Source: Chloroflexota bacterium
GTDB lineage: Bacteria > Chloroflexota > Limnocylindria > Limnocylindrales > CSP1-4
Direction of reading: 5' to 3'
Length of the DNA stretch: 40,037 nucleotides
NCBI GenBank assembly: GCA_021783595.1
Contig: JAJXTS010000006.1
Coordinates: forward strand, 1-40,037
The stretch's first letter is position 1. Every line of letters starts with the position of its first letter. Under the pieces are notes generated by a model that worked only from the letters and a program-made list of their open reading frames with translations, searched no databases and was not told where the DNA came from. The position numbers and the translations under genes are program-made. This document shows, piece by piece, positions 23,572 through 35,119 of the stretch.

Positions 23572-23647
23572 GCGCCTGTAGCTCAGCGGATAGAGCGTCG
23601 GCCTCCGGAGCCGAAGGTCGCAGGTTCGAATCCTGTCGGGCGCGCCA
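23572..23647 (+). tRNA. tRNA-Arg (CCG)
   Basis: GCGCCTGTAGCTCAGCGGAT...TCGGC CTCCGGA GCCGA...GGTTCGAATCCTGTCGGGCGCGCCA; acceptor GCGCCTG/CGGGCGC, anticodon CCG. Confidence 0.95.
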
Positions 23648-24351
23648 TTTCAACCTTCTCGGGCAGCGCCAGCGCCAGACCGTGCGCGTAGGCCGCCTGC
23701 GTCAGCCGGACACCCACGATCTCGGGGCCGGCGACTGTGATCCGGTCGTAGATGGCGTGGAGCACGTCCGCCTTCTCCTTCGACTTCTCGGGGGCTTGGA
23801 GCGACTCGCCGAGGGCGCGCAGCCACTCGACGGCGCGCTCGGCGGGTAGTCCGGCGGCCGTCCGTTCGGTGACCGCGTCCCGCTGCTGGCGGAGTGCCTT
23901 CAGCCGGGCGAGGTATGCCTCGTCGCCGAGCCGGCCGCCGGCGTGCTCGAGCGCGAGCTCGCGGATCTGGCGCTCGATCCGCGCCCGGTCGATCTCGACC
24001 GGCTGCTGGCTGGACCCCAGCGCCGCGGCGACCGAGGCCATGGGTGCGGTCGTCGAGGGCGAGGCCCGCGACCTGCGCCAGGACCGGCGCCTCCCACGTC
24101 GCATCGCCGAGGCGTGCCCTGCGGCCCCATGCCTCGCACGGCTTGGCGCGCTGCTTGCGGTGGCGGCCGCCGGCGAAGGTGCCGTCGTTGCGCAGCCGCC
24201 GCCCGCAGACGCACGCGAGGAGGCCGCCCAGGAGGTCGACCCGGTCGCGGTCCCTCGGTCCGCCGCCGCGGGTCCGGAAGCGTCGCACGTCCTCCACGCG
24301 TGCCCAGAGCTCGTCCGACACCGGCGGGTTCGCGCGCCAGGGCGCGGGCTT
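23585..24351 (-). pseudogene. Serine recombinase C-terminal remnant (copy 1)
   Basis: Homologous to 28137-28835 at protein level (APWRANPPVSDELWARVEDVRRFRTRGGGPRDRDRVDLLGGLLACVCGRRLRNDGTF...; ITVAGPEIVGVRLTQAAYAHGLALALPEKV); frameshift near 24050; no N-terminal catalytic domain. Confidence 0.85.
23632..23647. repeat. att core, tRNA-side copy (attL-like)
   Basis: CCTGTCGGGCGCGCCA = 3' end of tRNA-Arg, identical to 28121-28136. Confidence 0.75.
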
Positions 24352-24412: not shown

Positions 24413-25669
24413 TCAGAAGCCGACCTGCGTCCCGAAGTGATTGTGGAGCCATGTGTTCGGTCCGGCGGTGTCGGTTTGGAGGGCGTCGATCTCGCCGTTC
24501 GCATACGCGGTGTTGTCGGTGAGGGTGTTGCCGGTCGGGCCCTTGTCCAGAACGAAGCCGAAGCTCCCGTTCCTCACGGCGACGTTCCCGGCGAACGTGC
24601 CGCCCGTCGTGGCCTCGAACAGGCCAAAGCCGGCGACGCTGTTCGCGCGCGCGATGTTGCCCTCGACCCTCGGGTTGGCCGCGGTGCCGAAGTCGAAGCC
24701 ACTGTTGCCGTTGCCGGTGGCGGTGTTGCCCGTGAGGCGGGCGTCGGCGGCGAAGTAGACGCGGATGCCGGAGTCGGCGTTGCCGGCGGCGCGATTCTGG
24801 CGGACGGTCGCCCGGTCGGAGCCGTAGCTCACCCAGATCCCCAGCCCTCCGTTGCCGGACGCCGTGTTGCCGATGAATCGGCAGTCGGGGCTCGACTCGA
24901 TGTAGAGGCCGTTCCCGCCGTTGGCTCTGGCGACGTTGGCCTCGATGTCGAGGCTGCTCGAGGCCTGGATGTTGAAGCCGTCGAGCCCGTTGCCCGTCAC
25001 CGTGTTCGCCGCGATCCGACTGTTCGTGACGCCGTTGATGACGAAGCCGAAGTTGACGTTGTCGCGGGCGACGTTGTGGGTGAGGCTGAGGTCCGCCGCT
25101 GGTTCGACGTGGAAGCCGTCGCCATTCCGCGACGAGGTGTTCGAGCTGACGGTCGCCCCAGAGCTGCCGTCCACGAGCGCGAAACCGGCCCACGCGTGGC
25201 CAGTCGCGATGTTGTCCCGGATCAGCGCGCCAGGCGAGTGCTGGAGGACGATGCCGTACGCCCCGCCGTTGCGGATGGTGTTGCCCACGATGACCGCGCC
25301 CGGCGACTCGGGGAGGTAGACGTTGTGGTCCGGGCTGCCCGTGACCGTATTGCCGTCGAGGCGGAGCCCGCGGCTGCCGTACGCGTAGATGCCGGTCGGG
25401 GCGAACCCCGTCACGACACAGTTCCTGATCGTGACGTCGGTTACCTCGTCCGCGCGGATCCCGACGGTGTCCGGAGCGCCGCTGCCGACGACCCTGTGGC
25501 CGGCGCAGTCGAGGGTGACGCCGCTGGCGCCGATGACGACGTTGCCGACGTGGTCGGCCGTCAGGGTCGTGCTGGTCGTGATGAGCAGCTCGCCGGCGCT
25601 GGCGGACACCGGCGCCGCGCCGAGCAGGAGCAGCGCTGAAGCAGCGATGACGACGACAGTGCGTCTCAT
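24413..25669 (-). CDS. Secreted right-handed parallel beta-helix (NosD-like) repeat protein, copy 1
   Basis: Signal peptide MRRTVVVIAASALLLLGAAPVSASA; repeating units such as GIVLQHSPGALIRDNIATGHAWAGFALVDGSSGATVSSNTSSRNGDGFHVEPAADLSLTHN. Confidence 0.88.
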   Translation of the reverse strand: MRRTVVVIAASALLLLGAAPVSASAGELLITTSTTLTADHVGNVVIGASGVTLDCAGHRVVGSGAPDTVGIRADEVTDVTIRNCVVTGFAPTGIYAYGSRGLRLDGNTVTGSPDHNVYLPESPGAVIVGNTIRNGGAYGIVLQHSPGALIRDNIATGHAWAGFALVDGSSGATVSSNTSSRNGDGFHVEPAADLSLTHNVARDNVNFGFVINGVTNSRIAANTVTGNGLDGFNIQASSSLDIEANVARANGGNGLYIESSPDCRFIGNTASGNGGLGIWVSYGSDRATVRQNRAAGNADSGIRVYFAADARLTGNTATGNGNSGFDFGTAANPRVEGNIARANSVAGFGLFEATTGGTFAGNVAVRNGSFGFVLDKGPTGNTLTDNTAYANGEIDALQTDTAGPNTWLHNHFGTQVGF

Positions 25670-25770
25670 GGGTAGGGATCCTCCCGGGACGCCCATCGCG
25701 GGTGGGTCTCGCCAGTGGCTCGGCGTGGTCCTGGCGACCGTGGCGCGGACCGCGCGTCAAAGCCTCCCGC
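25670..25770 (-). promoter_or_regulatory. Conserved structured 5' leader, copy (a), upstream of beta-helix 1
   Basis: GCGGGAGGCTTTGACGCGCGGTCCGCGCCACGGTCGCCAGGACCACGCCGAGCCACTGGCGAGACCCACCCGCGATGGGCGTCCCGGGAG(G); alignable to copies b, c, d. Confidence 0.75.
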
Positions 25771-25832
25771 TACTGGGGAGACGTTGGAAGTCGTCACCTG
25801 TGACATCCAGAGGCAAACGGCTCCCTGTCGCC

Positions 25833-26127
25833 TCAGCGGTGCCATTCGGCACCGGCTCGCGCGAGCACGTCCTGGGACTGGAGGGACCTGGGGAGACCCT
25901 CCGGCTCGGGCCAGCCGCTCCGCCAGGATCCACACGAGCTGGGCTGTCGTCTCCGCGCCCACCTTGGACCGCGCGTTCGCCAGGTGGTGCTTGACCGTCG
26001 AGTGCGACAGGCCGAGCCGGTGGGCGGCCGCCTCTCGGACCCGGCGATCAAGACGGCGACGACGACCTCCCGCTCGGTGGCGCGCTCGGTCGGCCCGAGT
26101 GCGGGCCCTCACGCGGTGAGCCCCGCC
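25833..26127 (-). pseudogene. Small LuxR-type HTH regulator, copy 1 (frameshifted)
   Basis: AAHRLGLSHSTVKHHLANARSKVGAETTAQLVWILAERLA in one frame and LPRSLQSQDVLARAGAEWHR in another; homologous to 27776..28069 and 34194..34592. Confidence 0.7.
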
Positions 26128-26159
26128 GTGGCCAGCCACTCGTCGCGGCCCTCGATCGG

Positions 26160-26205
26160 GATCCGGTAGGTTGCCAACGCGTGTCGGGCCGTCCGGCGCG
26201 CCATT
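26160..26205. repeat. Diverged att-like junction between units 1 and 2
   Basis: GATCCGGTAGGTTGCCAACGCGTGTCGGGCCGTCCGGCGCGCCATT, colinear with GATCTCGCAGGTTGCTAACGCGCGCCCGACACCTGTCGGGCGCGCC at 34613-34658. Confidence 0.5.
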
Positions 26206-26586
26206 GCCTTGAATCGCGACAGGTCGCCGACGCGATGGGCAGCCGGTATTTCGTCGCGCGCGGGAGTCGCCACGACGATGCGGCCGCCGCGGGCCCGCAC
26301 GTCGGCGAACAGACTGGCCGCGAACCCGCCCGTCCGGCGGGCGTCGCCCTCGCCCAGAGTCCGCCGGGGCCCGGGAGCAGCCTCGCGGCGGGGACGGTCA
26401 CACCGCCTCGCTGTAGGTCCGTTGTGGCAGTTCCCCCACTCCGCGACGCGCAGCGGCCCTCGTACTCCCCGCGGGCGGTTGCCGAGGTCGGGGGCGGTCG
26501 ACCAACTCCCGCGTGAAGCGACCGAGCCGTCCGTGGTGTTGCGGAACGCTCGGGGAACGCTCCCCCGCCAACGTTGGCCCCATCAC

Positions 26587-26683
26587 GCGGGATGCTTTGA
26601 CGCGCGGCCCAAGTACTGGCCGCCGGGGCCGCGCCGAGCCACTGGCGAGACCGACCCGCTTGGGGGCGTCCCGGGAGGTATCG
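26587..26683 (+). promoter_or_regulatory. Conserved structured 5' leader, copy (b), upstream of the collagen-like gene
   Basis: GCGGGATGCTTTGACGCGCGGCCCAAGTACTGGCCGCCGGGGCCGCGCCGAGCCACTGGCGAGACCGACCCGCTTGGGGGCGTCCCGGGAGGTATCGATG. Confidence 0.75.
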
Positions 26684-27529
26684 ATGCGCGGGCACCTGCC
26701 CATGTCCATGCTCGCCGCGTTCGCCGCGCTGACGGTCGTCAGCGGCGCCGTGCTCGCGGGCTCCACCTGGAACGTCCCGACGAACGGGGTGTTCTACGCC
26801 TGCTACGACAGCGGCGGGAACGTCAAGTTCATCGACTTCAGCGTGACCAAGAAGTGCCCCTCCAACTGGACGGGCCCGGTGCAGTGGAGCCAGACCGGGC
26901 CGCAGGGCCTCCAGGGGCCCAAGGGCGACACCGGCCTGACGGGCCTGAAGGGGGACACCGGGGCCACGGGGCCCAAGGGCGACACCGGGGCCACCGGGGC
27001 GACGGGGCCCAAGGGCGACACGGGCCTGACGGGCGACACCGGGGCCACGGGCGCCACGGGGCCCAAGGGCGACAAGGGCGACACGGGCCTGACGGGCCTC
27101 ACCGGCGCGACCGGGCCTGCGGGGACCGACGGCAAGGATGGCGTCCCGGGCAAGGACGGCCTGAATGGGACCAACGGCATCGACGGCAAGGACGGCGCGC
27201 CGGGTGCGACCGGGCCGGCCGGGCCCGCAGGCCCCAAGGGCGACAAGGGCGATTCCGGAACGGCTGGGCTCACCACACGTGAGGTCTGGGCCGTCTTTGC
27301 GGTCGCACCAGGCGGGGTCGGATACGGGGGGCCCGACTGTGCTCCGGGCGAATTGGTGACAGGCGGCGGGTTCCAGATCGCCGACGCCACACTCGTGGTT
27401 TATGAGAACAAGGCCCACTTCGACAGCAGCCCCGATCAGCTCAATGGGTGGTGGGCGTCGGCACGGAACGAAGGCTCCCACTCGCAGAATCTCGTCGTGT
27501 TCGCGATCTGCCTCGGGTTCGGTTCCTGA
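26684..27529 (+). CDS. Collagen-like (GXY repeat) secreted protein
   Basis: Signal-like N-terminus, then [43 protein letters not shown]... about 40 GXY triplets, and a C-terminal domain with [17 protein letters not shown]. Confidence 0.92.
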
Positions 27530-27775: not shown

Positions 27776-28069
27776 TCAAGCAGACCGCTGCTCGTCCGTC
27801 GGGCCCAGGCCCCCGGGCTCGGGCAGCCGCGGCGCCAGGATCCACACGAGCTGCGCCGTCGTCTCCGCCCCCACCTTCGACCGCGCGTTCGCCAGGTGGT
27901 GCTTCACGGTCGAGTGTGACAGGCCGAGCCGGTGGGCGGCCGCCTTCTCCGACCCGGCGACGAGGACCGCTGCGACGACGCCGACCTCGCGGTCCGTGGC
28001 GCGCTCTGCGGCCTCACGGTCAGCCCGGGTCCGGGCCCTCACGCGGTCAAGCCCGCCGCGGCCAGCCAC
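27776..28069 (-). CDS. Small LuxR-type HTH regulator, copy 2
   Basis: DREVGVVAAVLVAGSEKAAAHRLGLSHSTVKHHLANARSKVGAETTAQLVWILA; GTG start; no receiver domain. Confidence 0.75.
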   Translation of the reverse strand: MAGRGGLDRVRARTRADREAAERATDREVGVVAAVLVAGSEKAAAHRLGLSHSTVKHHLANARSKVGAETTAQLVWILAPRLPEPGGLGPTDEQRSA

Positions 28070-29560
28070 TCATCGCGGCCCTCGATCGGGATCGTGCAGG
28101 TTGAAATTGCGCGCCCGACACCTGTCGGGCGCGCCAGAACAACCTTTTCGGGCAGAGCCAGCGCGAGTCCGTGCGCGTAGGCCGCCTGGGTCAGCCGGAC
28201 GCCCACGATCTCGGGGCCCGCGACCGTGATCCGCTCGTAGATGGCGTGCATCAGGTCCGCTCTCTCCTTCGGTGCGTCTGCGGCCTGGAGGGACTCGCCG
28301 AGGGCTCGCAGCCACTCGACCGCGCGCCCGGCCGGTGGTCCCGCGGCCGTCCGCTCCACGATCGCGTCCCGCTGCTGCCGGAGCGCTTTGAGGCGGGCGA
28401 GGTACGCCTCGTCGCCCAGGCTCCCGGCGGCGTGCTCCAGGGCGAGCTCGCGCATCTGGCGGTCGATCCTGGCCCGGTCGATCGCGACCGGCTGGCGGCT
28501 CGAGCCGAGGGCGGCGACGACCGCGCCCATCGTCGCGTCGTCGAGCGCGACGCCGGCGGCCTGGGCGAGCACGGGCGCCTCCCAGACCTCGTCGCCGAGG
28601 CGTGCCTTGCGGCCCCAGGCCTCGCACAGCTCGGGGTGGTGCTTGCGGTGGCGGCCGTCGGCGAACGTCCCGTCGTTGCGCAGTCGCCTGCCGCAGACGC
28701 ACGCGAGTAGGCCGCCCAGGAGGTCGACCCGGTCGCGGTCCCTCGGTCCGCCGCCGCGGGTCCGGAAGCGTCGCACGTCCTCCACGCGTGCCCAGAGCTC
28801 GTCCGACACCGGCGGGTTCGCGCGCCAGGGCGCGGGACGCCGCGTCTCGTCCTTGCCGCGGTGCCGCCGGACCCAGCCGTTGTACAGCGGGTTCATGAGG
28901 ATCATCCGGATGCGCGTGGCGGCAAGGCCGGTCTCGGCCTCGAGCTGGCTCGCGCTGACGTTGCCCAGCGCGTACCTCTCGAACAGGCCGACTGCGACCG
29001 GCATGCGCTCGGGGTCGACCTCGAGGGTGTGCGGCGGGTCGGGCAGGCGGCGGAAGCCGAGGGCGGCGTGGCCGCCGGGGTCGCGCTCCTGGTCGAACTT
29101 GGCGGCGGCTGTACTTCTCCGCCCCGGCGGCCTCGGAGATCAGCTCGTCCCAGTCGGACGGATCCGAGCTCAGGATCTTCCGGTCGCACATCACCAGGGC
29201 GACGCCGTCCGGCTGCAGCTCGTCCTCGAGCAGCTCGAGCGTGCGGCGCAGGTTGCGCTGCCAGCGGTCCGAGTAGCCGGTCAGGAGGAGGTCGAAGCGG
29301 CCCGACCGCAGGTCCTCGACCATTGACGCCATCGTGGCCGAGCGCCAGACGGTGCGGCCGCTGTGCGCGACCTGGTAGACGAGCCCGGTGTCCACGAGGC
29401 CGTGGCGGTCGATGAACCGGTCCTGCTGCTCGCGCTGGCGCGCCGGGCCGTAGCGGTCGTACTGGCCGGCCGTCGACTCCCGGATCCAGCGGGCGACGCG
29501 GAGCCCGCGGACGTCGTCGAGCGAGCGGGGCAGCCGCCGCACGGCGCGGGCCGCCGTCAC
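28039..29560 (-). pseudogene. Large serine recombinase (copy 2), single frameshift near 29100
   Basis: Resolvase N-terminus VARWIRESTAGQYDRYGPARQREQQDRFIDRHGL, recombinase domain VGLFERYALGNVSASQLEAETGLAATRIRMILMNPLYNGWVRRHRGK, Cys-containing segment CVCGRRLRNDGTF, coiled coil; frame changes at AGCCGCCGCCAAGTTC. Confidence 0.88.
28109..28134. repeat. att-like palindrome (attP-like tandem junction)
   Basis: GCGCGCCCGACA-CC-TGTCGGGCGCGC: perfect 12-bp half-sites around a CC dinucleotide; right half is the tRNA-Arg 3' end. Confidence 0.75.
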
Positions 29561-29986: not shown

Positions 29987-30232
29987 GCGGCCGTCCGTCA
30001 GCTGTGCTTGCTACGGCGCGACCGCGAAGCTTGCGGCGAGCGGCGGCGGCCCGCCAGGCTGATGACGACACCCCAGACCGCGCAGAGATTCACCCACGAA
30101 TCGTCGACGAACTGCCCGGGTGCGTCTATTCGCCTGCGGTGCTACGCCTGCAGGGCCGACCTCGAACGCACCGGGCGTCCGGGGGCCGTTCGCCTCTCGC
30201 CAGTCTCTGTCATGCGTCTATGGTGCCCGTCA

Positions 30233-30331
30233 GCGGGAGGCTCTGACGCGCGGTCCGTGTCACGGCCGCCAGGACCGCACCGAGCCACTGGTGAGACCGA
30301 CCCGCGATGAGCGTCCCGGGAAGGTGACGCC
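30233..30331 (+). promoter_or_regulatory. Conserved structured 5' leader, copy (c), upstream of a membrane protein gene
   Basis: GCGGGAGGCTCTGACGCGCGGTCCGTGTCACGGCCGCCAGGACCGCACCGAGCCACTGGTGAGACCGACCCGCGATGAGCGTCCCGGGAAGGTGACGCCATG. Confidence 0.75.
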
Positions 30332-32838: not shown

Positions 32839-34110
32839 TCAGAAGCCGACCTGCGTCCCGAAGTGATTGTGGAGCCATGTGTTCGGTCCGGCGGTGTCGG
32901 TCTGGAGGGCGTCGATCTCGCCGTTCCCATACGCCCTGTTGTCCTCGAGCGTGTTGCCGCTCGGGCCGCCATCCACGAGGAAACCGAAGCTCGCATTCCG
33001 GTTGGCGACGTTCTCTACAAACGTCCCGCCGGTCGTGCTGTCGAAGAGGCCGAAGCCCGCCCAGGTGTTCGCCCGCGCGACGTTGCCCTTCACCGTCGGG
33101 TTGATGGCGGTGCCGAAGTCGAAGCCGACCGGGTTGCCGCTGGCCGTGTTGCCCACGACGCGAGCATCGGCCGCATGGTAGATGCGGATGCCGTTGTCCC
33201 CGTTGTTGCTGGCGAGGTTCAGGCGGAGAGTCGCTCGGTCGGAACCCGAGCTCACCCAGAATCCGAGAGCACGGTTGTCCGACGCGTTGTTGGCGACGAG
33301 TAGGATGTCGGGAGTGGCCTCGATGTAGAAGCCGTTGTTGTTGGCCTTGACGACGTTGGCCTCGATCGTCAGGCCGCCCGACGCCTGGATGTTGAAGCCG
33401 TCTGCGCCATTCCGGCTGACCGTGTTCGCCACGAACCGCCCGCCGGTCACGCCGTTGACGACGAAGCCGAAGTTGTAGTTGTCGCGAGCGACGTTCCGGC
33501 TGAAGGTGAGGTCCGCGGCTGGCTCGACGTGGAAGCCGTCCCCGTTCCTCGCCGAGGTATTGGAGCTGACGGTCGTCTGCGAGCTCGCGTCCACGAGCGC
33601 GAAGCCTGCCCACTTGTTGTCGGTTGCGGTGTTGCCGGTGATGACCGCGCCGCTCGAGCGCTGGAGGACGACGCCGTAGCCGCCGTAGGGATCGCCAAAG
33701 CCGGAGTCGCGAATGGTGTTGCCCATGACGACGGCGCCCGGCGAGTCCGCGAGGTAGATGGCGTGGCCGGCGCTGCCTAGCACCGTGTTGCCCCTGACGT
33801 GGAGCCCCGTGCTGCCCGCCGCGTAGATGCCGTGCGGGTCGAATCCCGTCACGACGCAGTTCTTGATCGTCACGCCGGTGACGTTGTCGGCCCTGATCCC
33901 GACGAGATCCGCGGTTCCGTCTCCGATGATGCTGTGGCCAGCGCAGTCGAGCGTGATCCCGCTGGCTTGGATCACGACGTTGCCGTCATGGTCTGAGGTC
34001 AGGGTCGTGCTGCTCGTGATCGACAGTTCGCCGCTGCTTGCGAACACCGGGGCGGCGGCGCCCAGGAGGAGCACTGCCGAGACGACGACGACGGTCGCGG
34101 TGCGTCGCAT
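32839..34110 (-). CDS. Secreted right-handed parallel beta-helix (NosD-like) repeat protein, copy 2
   Basis: MRRTATVVVVSAVLLLGAAAPVFASSGE signal; clear paralog of 24413..25669, identical C-terminus ALQTDTAGPNTWLHNHFGTQVGF. Confidence 0.88.
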   Translation of the reverse strand: MRRTATVVVVSAVLLLGAAAPVFASSGELSITSSTTLTSDHDGNVVIQASGITLDCAGHSIIGDGTADLVGIRADNVTGVTIKNCVVTGFDPHGIYAAGSTGLHVRGNTVLGSAGHAIYLADSPGAVVMGNTIRDSGFGDPYGGYGVVLQRSSGAVITGNTATDNKWAGFALVDASSQTTVSSNTSARNGDGFHVEPAADLTFSRNVARDNYNFGFVVNGVTGGRFVANTVSRNGADGFNIQASGGLTIEANVVKANNNGFYIEATPDILLVANNASDNRALGFWVSSGSDRATLRLNLASNNGDNGIRIYHAADARVVGNTASGNPVGFDFGTAINPTVKGNVARANTWAGFGLFDSTTGGTFVENVANRNASFGFLVDGGPSGNTLEDNRAYGNGEIDALQTDTAGPNTWLHNHFGTQVGF

Positions 34111-34207
34111 TACGCATCCCTCCGGGACGCGTCAGCGGGTTGGTCTCGCCAGTGGCTCGACGCGGTCTCGGCGACCGTGGGATGGACCGCGCGTCAGCAC
34201 CTCCCGC
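34111..34207 (-). promoter_or_regulatory. Conserved structured 5' leader, copy (d), upstream of beta-helix 2
   Basis: GCGGGAGGTGCTGACGCGCGGTCCATCCCACGGTCGCCGAGACCGCGTCGAGCCACTGGCGAGACCAACCCGCTGACGCGTCCCGGAGGGATGCGTA(ATG). Confidence 0.75.
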
Positions 34208-34592
34208 TAGAGGAGAGACGGTGCGGGCCGTCAGCCGTTACGTGCCAGAGGCAAACGGCCCTCTGTCGCCTCAGCGGTCCCATTCGGCACCAGCTCGCGC
34301 GAGCACGTCCTGGGAGTGGAATGACCCGGGGAGACCCTCGGGCTCCGGCACCCGCGGCGAGGATCCACACCAGCTGCGCGGTCGTCTCCGCCCCGACCTT
34401 GGACCGCGCGTTCGCCAGGTGGTGCTTGACGGTGGAGTGCGACAGGCCGAGCCGGTGGGCGGCCGCCTTCTCGGACCCAGCCTCGAGGACCGCCGCCACG
34501 ACGCCGACCTCGCGCTCGGCGGCGCGCTCGGCGGCCGCCCGGTCGGCCCGGGTCCGCGCCCTCACGCAGTCAGGCCCGCCGCGGCCAGCCAC
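34194..34592 (-). CDS. Small LuxR-type HTH regulator, copy 3
   Basis: AEREVGVVAAVLEAGSEKAAAHRLGLSHSTVKHHLANARSKVGAETTAQLVWILA; overlaps the start of leader copy (d). Confidence 0.7.
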   Translation of the reverse strand: MAGRGGPDCVRARTRADRAAAERAAEREVGVVAAVLEAGSEKAAAHRLGLSHSTVKHHLANARSKVGAETTAQLVWILAAGAGARGSPRVIPLPGRARASWCRMGPLRRQRAVCLWHVTADGPHRLSSSGRC

Positions 34593-34631
34593 TCATCCCG
34601 GCCCTCGATCGGGATCTCGCAGGTTGCTAAC

Positions 34632-34657
34632 GCGCGCCCGACACCTGTCGGGCGCGC
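34632..34657. repeat. att-like palindrome at the right boundary (attR-like)
   Basis: GCGCGCCCGACA-CC-TGTCGGGCGCGC, followed by CGCAG instead of CAGAAC. Confidence 0.75.
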
Positions 34658-35119
34658 CGCAGCCCCTCGCGGGCCCCCCGTCGGTCGTGGACGGCTCGGA
34701 CCGCCGGCCTGCTGCAGGCTGACGTCTGGAAACCCTGCGGATGGCCGCACGGATGCGCTGCAGGTGGCGGTCTGGATGTCCTGCAACATGCCGTCTGAGA
34801 CCTTGACGCTGCCGATCGGCGGTCCGAGACTCGCCGGCATGCACGACCGCGCGCGCGTGATCGACGCCCAGCTTGCCGGGGCCATCGAGGCTGTCGGAGC
34901 GGCCGTGCTCGAGGGCTCCCGCGCGGCGCCTGCGCGACCCTGCCAGCCCGAACCCGCGCGGGACCAGTGGAAGGGGCCGGGTGTTCGCTGGATCGCGCAC
35001 GTCGGTCTGGCGTGGGCAGTGACCTGCGCCCGAGCTCCCCGCGGGGCCCGTGGCACCGAGGGCGCGCGGCGACACTGGCGTGACCGAGATCGCGCGACGG
35101 CTGGGAAGGAGACCGCCCG

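Follow-up and report, generated by a model that had tools for sequence, protein, structure and literature searches.

The window, a stretch of 40,037 nt from contig JAJXTS010000006.1 of a Chloroflexota bacterium (GCA_021783595.1), contains three tandem units of small integrative elements at a tRNA-Arg(CCG) gene. Unit A holds a recombinase C-terminal fragment and a NosD-like protein, unit B carries a collagen-like protein as cargo, and element C has another NosD-like protein and a recombinase whose frame is shifted near 29.1 kb. All three are closed by an HTH gene and then an att site. The features of the array are as follows:

23572..23647, plus strand: tRNA-Arg(CCG), the integration target (ARAGORN; Rfam RF00005; sequence)
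23632-23646: attL core, the 3' part of the tRNA, CCTGTCGGGCGCGCC (sequence)
23632..24348, minus strand: recombinase copy A, a C-terminal fragment in the integrated form, ending ARPTGFEPATFGSGGRRSIR and a stop in antisense tRNA-Arg (BLAST self-match of 87% to copy C; translation)
24413..25696, minus strand: unit A cargo, right-handed beta-helix/NosD-like protein (Pfam PF13229, PF05048)
26166..26205, minus strand: degenerate internal att site at the boundary of units A and B, with the tail ...ALATYRIPIEGRDEWLATAGLTA and its stop at 26109
26684..27529, plus strand: unit B cargo, collagen-repeat protein (Pfam PF01391)
27776..28042, minus strand: GerE/LuxR-type HTH gene (Pfam PF00196, 27.4 bits), the GTG start of which overlaps the recombinase stop (GTGA)
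28039..28120, minus strand: attP-type recombinase tail VGRAISTCTIPIEGRDEWLAAAGLTA and a stop (translation; pN/pS tests)
28039..29539, minus strand: large serine recombinase gene C (Pfam Resolvase PF00239; profile matches)
28098..28145: attP-like junction site; its dyad axis lies on CC at 28121-28122, the candidate crossover dinucleotide (dyad analysis, 43 sites)
28121-28135: shared core CCTGTCGGGCGCGCC of the 28.1-kb site (boundaries from self-alignment)
32839..34110, minus strand: element C cargo, right-handed beta-helix/NosD-like protein (Pfam PF13229, PF05048)
34194..34565, minus strand: distal HTH gene of element C, again with a GTG start that overlaps a tail stop, at 34562
34620..34668: right-hand att site, the attR of element C, in which the tail side joins the chromosomal flank after CCTGTCGGGCGCGCC (34644-34658)

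Comparison of the window with itself by BLAST gave an 87% match between the two recombinase copies (23632-24348 and 28121-28836), and the tail side of the 28.1-kb att site was found again at 34332-34658 (89%) and at about 25894-26173 (83%). At 28.1 kb, two tandem elements meet in a junction that rebuilds an attP-like sequence; the site is not a free circle. Neither recombinase copy in the window is intact: copy A is a C-terminal fragment, and the frameshift divides gene C into an N-terminal piece (29099-29539) and a C-terminal piece (28039-29121) in different frames. A search for the empty attB of this array with its left and right flanks yielded none, because these flanks are too poorly conserved.

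The recombinase matched the resolvase catalytic domain PF00239 with 41-43 bits (cut-off 23.3), and the R.S...Q region, together with the C.CG and the distal C of the zinc ribbon, was invariant in the family alignment. The Recombinase domain PF07508 scored 17.7-19.2 bits, under its cut-off of 21.1, and a search of the window's own genome with this profile therefore returned nothing over the cut-off; relatives were found via protein queries instead. The Foldseek hits include complexes of Bxb1, phiC31 and further serine integrases, with E values down to 1.7e-13 and low global TM, and the predicted fold resembles that of Bxb1/phiC31-type integrases.

The recombinase frame on the minus strand crosses the att core and reads ...ALALPEKVVLARPTGVGRAISTCTIPIEGRDEWLAAAGLTA up to a stop at 28039-28041. 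The core, GGCGCGCCCGACAGG in this frame, encodes ARPTG and is followed by the attP-type tail of 26 residues (VGRAISTCTIPIEGRDEWLAAAGLTA) and a TGA stop. In the tRNA-side copy, the frame reads ...EKVEMARPTGFEPATFGSGGRRSIR and a stop, continuing after the core as FEPATFGSGGRRSIR and terminating in tRNA-Arg(CCG). Both tails had been proposed in a sequence-only reading of this DNA and were reproduced exactly by translation, and the placement of an att site within the 3' end of the gene for a large serine recombinase was confirmed in the window and in relatives. An integrase ORF that runs on past the att core is seen in the window, at loci L007, L027, L054 and L050 and at others, in each case at a junction and not in a closed circle; no terminal overlap was found in the contigs tested for circularity, such as the whole-contig loci L005, L015 and L068.

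Relatives are encoded by 15 loci from genome contigs and in 58 of the 177 genomes of the class. At no fewer than 25 distinct loci, the frame ends ...ARPTGFEPATFGSGGRRSI[HR] (also given as GFEPATFGSGGRRSI[HR]) and a stop inside antisense tRNA-Arg(CCG), and other relatives run in the same manner into tRNA-Arg TCG, CCT, TCT and GCG. Relatives at a greater distance, of roughly 35% identity, terminate within tRNA-Pro(CGG), with ...GRGERI and a stop, and within tRNA-Val(CAC). The length of the integrated tail is set by the target (about 15 aa for Arg CCG, about 5 for Arg TCG, 1 for Pro and several for Val). Integrated tails thus vary in length and sequence between targets, whereas the attP tail is conserved; since the former are dictated by the tRNA, the informative event is the loss of the attP tail. 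In the class genomes, 62 distinct full-tail sites (non-tRNA junctions or attR) were read, with the tail ...IPIEGRDEWLAAA..., and many of the non-tRNA sites are decayed array junctions. Most of the 62 came from the tail profile, which matches 76 of the 177 genomes (a count that includes integrated ends). The non-tRNA ends gathered by recombinase homology alone give the same picture, with an [IVL][PL]I.G-type tail at 13 of 14, and the tail is therefore not due to chance. The tail of L005 is unrelated to the rest.

Intact full-length recombinase ORFs were found with the attP-type tail (L007 and L027) and with a tRNA-derived tail (L001-L004, L006, L009, L026 and L049), and a clean stop ahead of the att core, which the sequence-only reading had named as its refutation, was seen in none of the close relatives whose end could be read. 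The interpretation given in that reading is supported in part: tRNA-integrated and attP-type tails do differ across the family. The attP-like site of the window, being a tandem junction, does not represent a free form. Integration would replace the C terminus of the enzyme, as judged from a comparison across the family in which each element was seen in one of the two states.

When 43 sites were aligned on the core, the symmetry axis fell on GG at most of them, the arms being complementary at positions 1-12 and near 18 bp, and the att sites display the dyad symmetry about a central dinucleotide that is a trait of serine integrases. In genome G104, the attB contig has GGTGATGGCGCGCCCGACAGG between the tRNA and a flank of at least 108 bp; in the attR contig, the identical flank (at least 108 bp) and GGTGATGGCGCGCCCGACAGG are followed by the tail instead of the tRNA, and the two diverge immediately after GG. 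These comparisons support a crossover core centred on GG/CC, in agreement with the CC dinucleotide originally suggested from the window. The presence of attB and attR in one assembly suggests a mixed population or an active element. The pair corresponds to L161 (G104 C49) and L200 (G104 C217), an empty attB and an attR in a single MAG.

We interpret the window as an array at tRNA-Arg(CCG) derived from a clade of serine recombinases with attP in their own gene, in which integration removes the tail and splits int from hth, and this probably constitutes a built-in switch.

At 42 of the 62 sites, an [AG]TGA sequence combines the stop of the tail with the start codon of the gene that follows. The overlapping ORF has 40 codons or more at 35 of the 62 sites, compared with a background rate of 21% among the stops of the same DNA (binomial p value of 2e-9, which is optimistic, as the sites are related and the background includes non-genes), and some tail classes lack the [AG]TGA overlap. 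The next genes at the overlaps include 24 GerE/LuxR-like HTH genes and four of ParB type; a ParB-like gene (PF02195) replaces the HTH gene as the co-translated gene in one subgroup (L027, from 2562 onward, L157, L176 and L177). In the integrated state, the HTH gene lies at the opposite end of the element (34.2-34.6 kb in the window). From this layout, the int-[attP]-hth arrangement is read as an operon that integration would split. Gene order could then itself be the switch, with the HTH protein acting as a directionality factor or as a regulator of int once severed from it, and the tail would be a by-product of translational coupling. The overlaps with ORFs of 40 aa or more, 24 of them HTH genes, and the displacement of the HTH gene in the window are consistent with this explanation. 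However, coupling needs no conserved peptide, IPIEG-type residues are kept at sites without the overlap (L007, L054, L066 and L071), and ParB takes the place of HTH in some elements. We consider this explanation unlikely.

The pN/pS of the tail motif was 0.36 in frame vs 1.33 and 1.40 in the other frames (48 distinct 12-codon sequences), and none of 300 column permutations gave a value as low. A smaller set, in which seven of the eight tails were found without the tail profile or came from the window itself, gave a pN/pS of 0.38, with variation at 20 of 26 third positions vs 10 first and 8 second positions. Over IPIEGRDEWLAA, the variable first, second and third codon positions numbered 2, 2 and 9 of 12, respectively. 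The tail motif lies beyond the attP half-site of about 23 bp and, on the pattern of codon variation, the attP tail is conserved as a protein, with purifying selection extending past the attP arms. An attP tail that is an attP DNA arm only was rejected for tail codons 11-22, in which variation is concentrated in third positions. Part of the tail conservation could nevertheless come from translational coupling or from constraint on the attP arm.

The AlphaFold model of the attP form (L027) has a C-terminal strand (491-494) and a helix (500-511), with pLDDT of about 75-82 over most of the tail. In the model of the integrated form (L026, 88% identical to L027 in the A2 alignment), residues 477-500 have pLDDT below 50 and the last twenty 27-33. 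The models are suggestive of a folded attP tail and a disordered integrated tail, at differing alignment depths (24 vs 15 rows). ORFs overlapping tRNA att sites are common among tyrosine integrases, and the exchange might be a neutral by-product of an int gene that adjoins att and of an antisense tRNA frame that is open by chance, the tail having no role in recombination. The arbitrary length and sequence of the integrated tails would accord with such an origin, but the purifying selection on the attP tail past the attP arms (the third-position excess over IPIEGRDEWLAA and the in-frame pN/pS) and its predicted fold argue against it, and we regard it as quite improbable. That all copies are remnants of a pseudogene array, with no active element and a purely historical tail exchange, is hardly credible: the frameshifted and truncated copies of the window and the many truncated copies elsewhere would fit, but full-length ORFs exist in both forms and one MAG has attB and attR together.

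Under the built-in switch that we favour, the recombinase gene of a circle or tandem junction would extend across attP to encode a conserved C-terminal tail of strand and helix. The stop of this attP form would overlap the start codon of a small HTH gene, so that the two genes make up an int-[attP]-hth operon. A GG/CC crossover in the T-arm of the tRNA would remove the attP tail, the antisense tRNA would supply a replacement tail of about 1 to 16 residues, and the HTH gene would come to lie, through the same crossover, at the other end of the element. The loss of the folded tail and the uncoupling of the HTH gene may lower or redirect recombinase activity after integration, and the insertion would then be stable until excision is licensed, as in an Mx8-like switch. 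Superintegration is predicted to re-arm the older integrase, the array junction giving back an attP-type tail in the chromosome. The tail is thus not a strict reporter of the free state, because an older integrase at an array junction has an attP-type tail again while it is still chromosomal. Sequence comparison documents the anatomy of the array, the core, the stop/start overlap, the family-wide tail exchange and the protein-level constraint on the attP tail. That the tail controls stability or directionality is plausible, given a conserved tail predicted to be folded in one form and disordered in the other, and by analogy we infer a lower activity or changed direction of the integrated enzyme, as reported for Mx8. 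Only tentatively do we extend this to the clade at tRNA-Arg/Pro/Val as a whole, in which tail removal and the severing of int-att-hth might form an intrinsic directionality switch that operates without a classical recombination directionality factor.

The principle of an att site in the integrase gene is not new, as both streptococcal ICEs and Mx8 have it, and, in view of the former, the earlier impression that large serine recombinases are not known to have this arrangement does not hold. In the streptococcal ICEs in rumA, the att site lies inside the serine integrase gene (Ambroset et al. 2016, PMC4701971); integration exchanges 3' parts and changes the integrase C terminus, and the authors proposed a functional difference (PMC4701971). 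These ICEs resemble the Chloroflexota elements in their serine integrase, in the att site within its gene and in the changed C terminus, but they insert into a protein-coding gene, rumA, with a change of frame in both partners, whereas the Chloroflexota elements target tRNA genes. A conserved alternative tail or a coupled HTH gene is not reported for the rumA ICEs, whereas the attP tail of the Chloroflexota elements is conserved. Mx8, which targets a tRNA gene, differs from the Chloroflexota elements in being a phage with a tyrosine integrase. According to excerpts from PMC6070905 and PMC4701971, attP lies inside the Mx8 int gene and integration swaps the C-terminal 112 residues for 13. The modified Int is described as less active in the excerpt from PMC4701971, and in that from PMC6070905 as not inactivated, recombining several att sites at varying efficiency; the exchange was proposed to be a molecular switch (Tojo 1996; Magrini 1999, as cited in the excerpts from PMC6070905 and PMC4701971).

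Serine recombinases targeting tRNA genes are presented as rare in an excerpt from 2011 (PMC3218068), the examples being phiRSM1 (tRNA-Ser) and mycobacterial AICEs (tRNA-Leu). These share a serine recombinase at a tRNA gene with the Chloroflexota elements, but have other targets, and an att site inside int is not described for them in that excerpt (PMC3218068). An excerpt on Islander (PMC4383910, 2015) gives only tyrosine integrases as known to target tDNAs. The SSV-type archaeal integrases share with the Chloroflexota elements an att site inside int and a gene altered by integration. They are tyrosine recombinases with a gene split in its 5' part, near the N-terminal part of the protein, whereas the Chloroflexota enzyme is a serine recombinase with att in its last codons, so that only its last residues change. 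Bxb1, SPbeta and phiC31 have in common with our family the overall large serine recombinase fold, as predicted for the latter, and att sites with dyad symmetry on either side of a central dinucleotide; their attP lies outside coding sequence and their excision depends on a recombination directionality factor. Set against the open-access full-text literature, the new elements are the clade of tRNA-targeting serine recombinases, the alternative tail under selection and the splitting of the int-att-hth operon. The one-way character of integration by serine integrases has long been a question, for which separate directionality factors are the usual answer. A reaction that edits its own enzyme, together with natural pairs of proteins with and without the tail, would make directionality directly testable, and the clade adds widespread tRNA-targeting serine recombinases that would be useful for island finding and for genome-engineering tools.

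No relatives were found in phage or plasmid records. IMG/VR contains two close relatives, L049 and L050, the contigs of which are classed as viral, yet have no matching phage record. The distant relatives (L204-L233, with tRNA-Pro(CGG) and tRNA-Val(CAC) loci such as L211, L216, L217, L220, L221, L229, L214 and L215) make up additional subfamilies of tRNA-targeting serine recombinases, the ORFs of which likewise enter the antisense tRNA, and the tRNA-Pro group all end GRGERI at one common T-loop stop. L057 contains a junction form, GRGERSRDAG..., the stop overlap of which is again ATGA. The window's genome encodes a second, distant serine recombinase (L019/L231, G000 C41), with a 641-aa frame ending ...GRGER at the contig end, which is likely a tRNA-Pro integrant. 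Long tandem arrays occur elsewhere (L065/L175 in G091 C10, L071 in G021 C33, L189 in G014 C199 and L183 in G055 C186), with tail sites every 2-12 kb and many units apparently without a recombinase, in a cassette-like manner.

Four c-di-GMP-II-GAG riboswitch aptamers (RF03169, 71-78 bits) were identified in the window, at 25692-25776 (minus strand), 26581-26665 (plus), 30227-30310 (plus) and 34129-34213 (minus), each preceding one cargo gene of the array (two NosD-like, one collagen-like and one for an unknown 193-aa protein). The same leader is also present elsewhere in the window's genome and in seven other genomes of the genus, and the mobile cargo therefore appears to be tied to the c-di-GMP regulon of the host.
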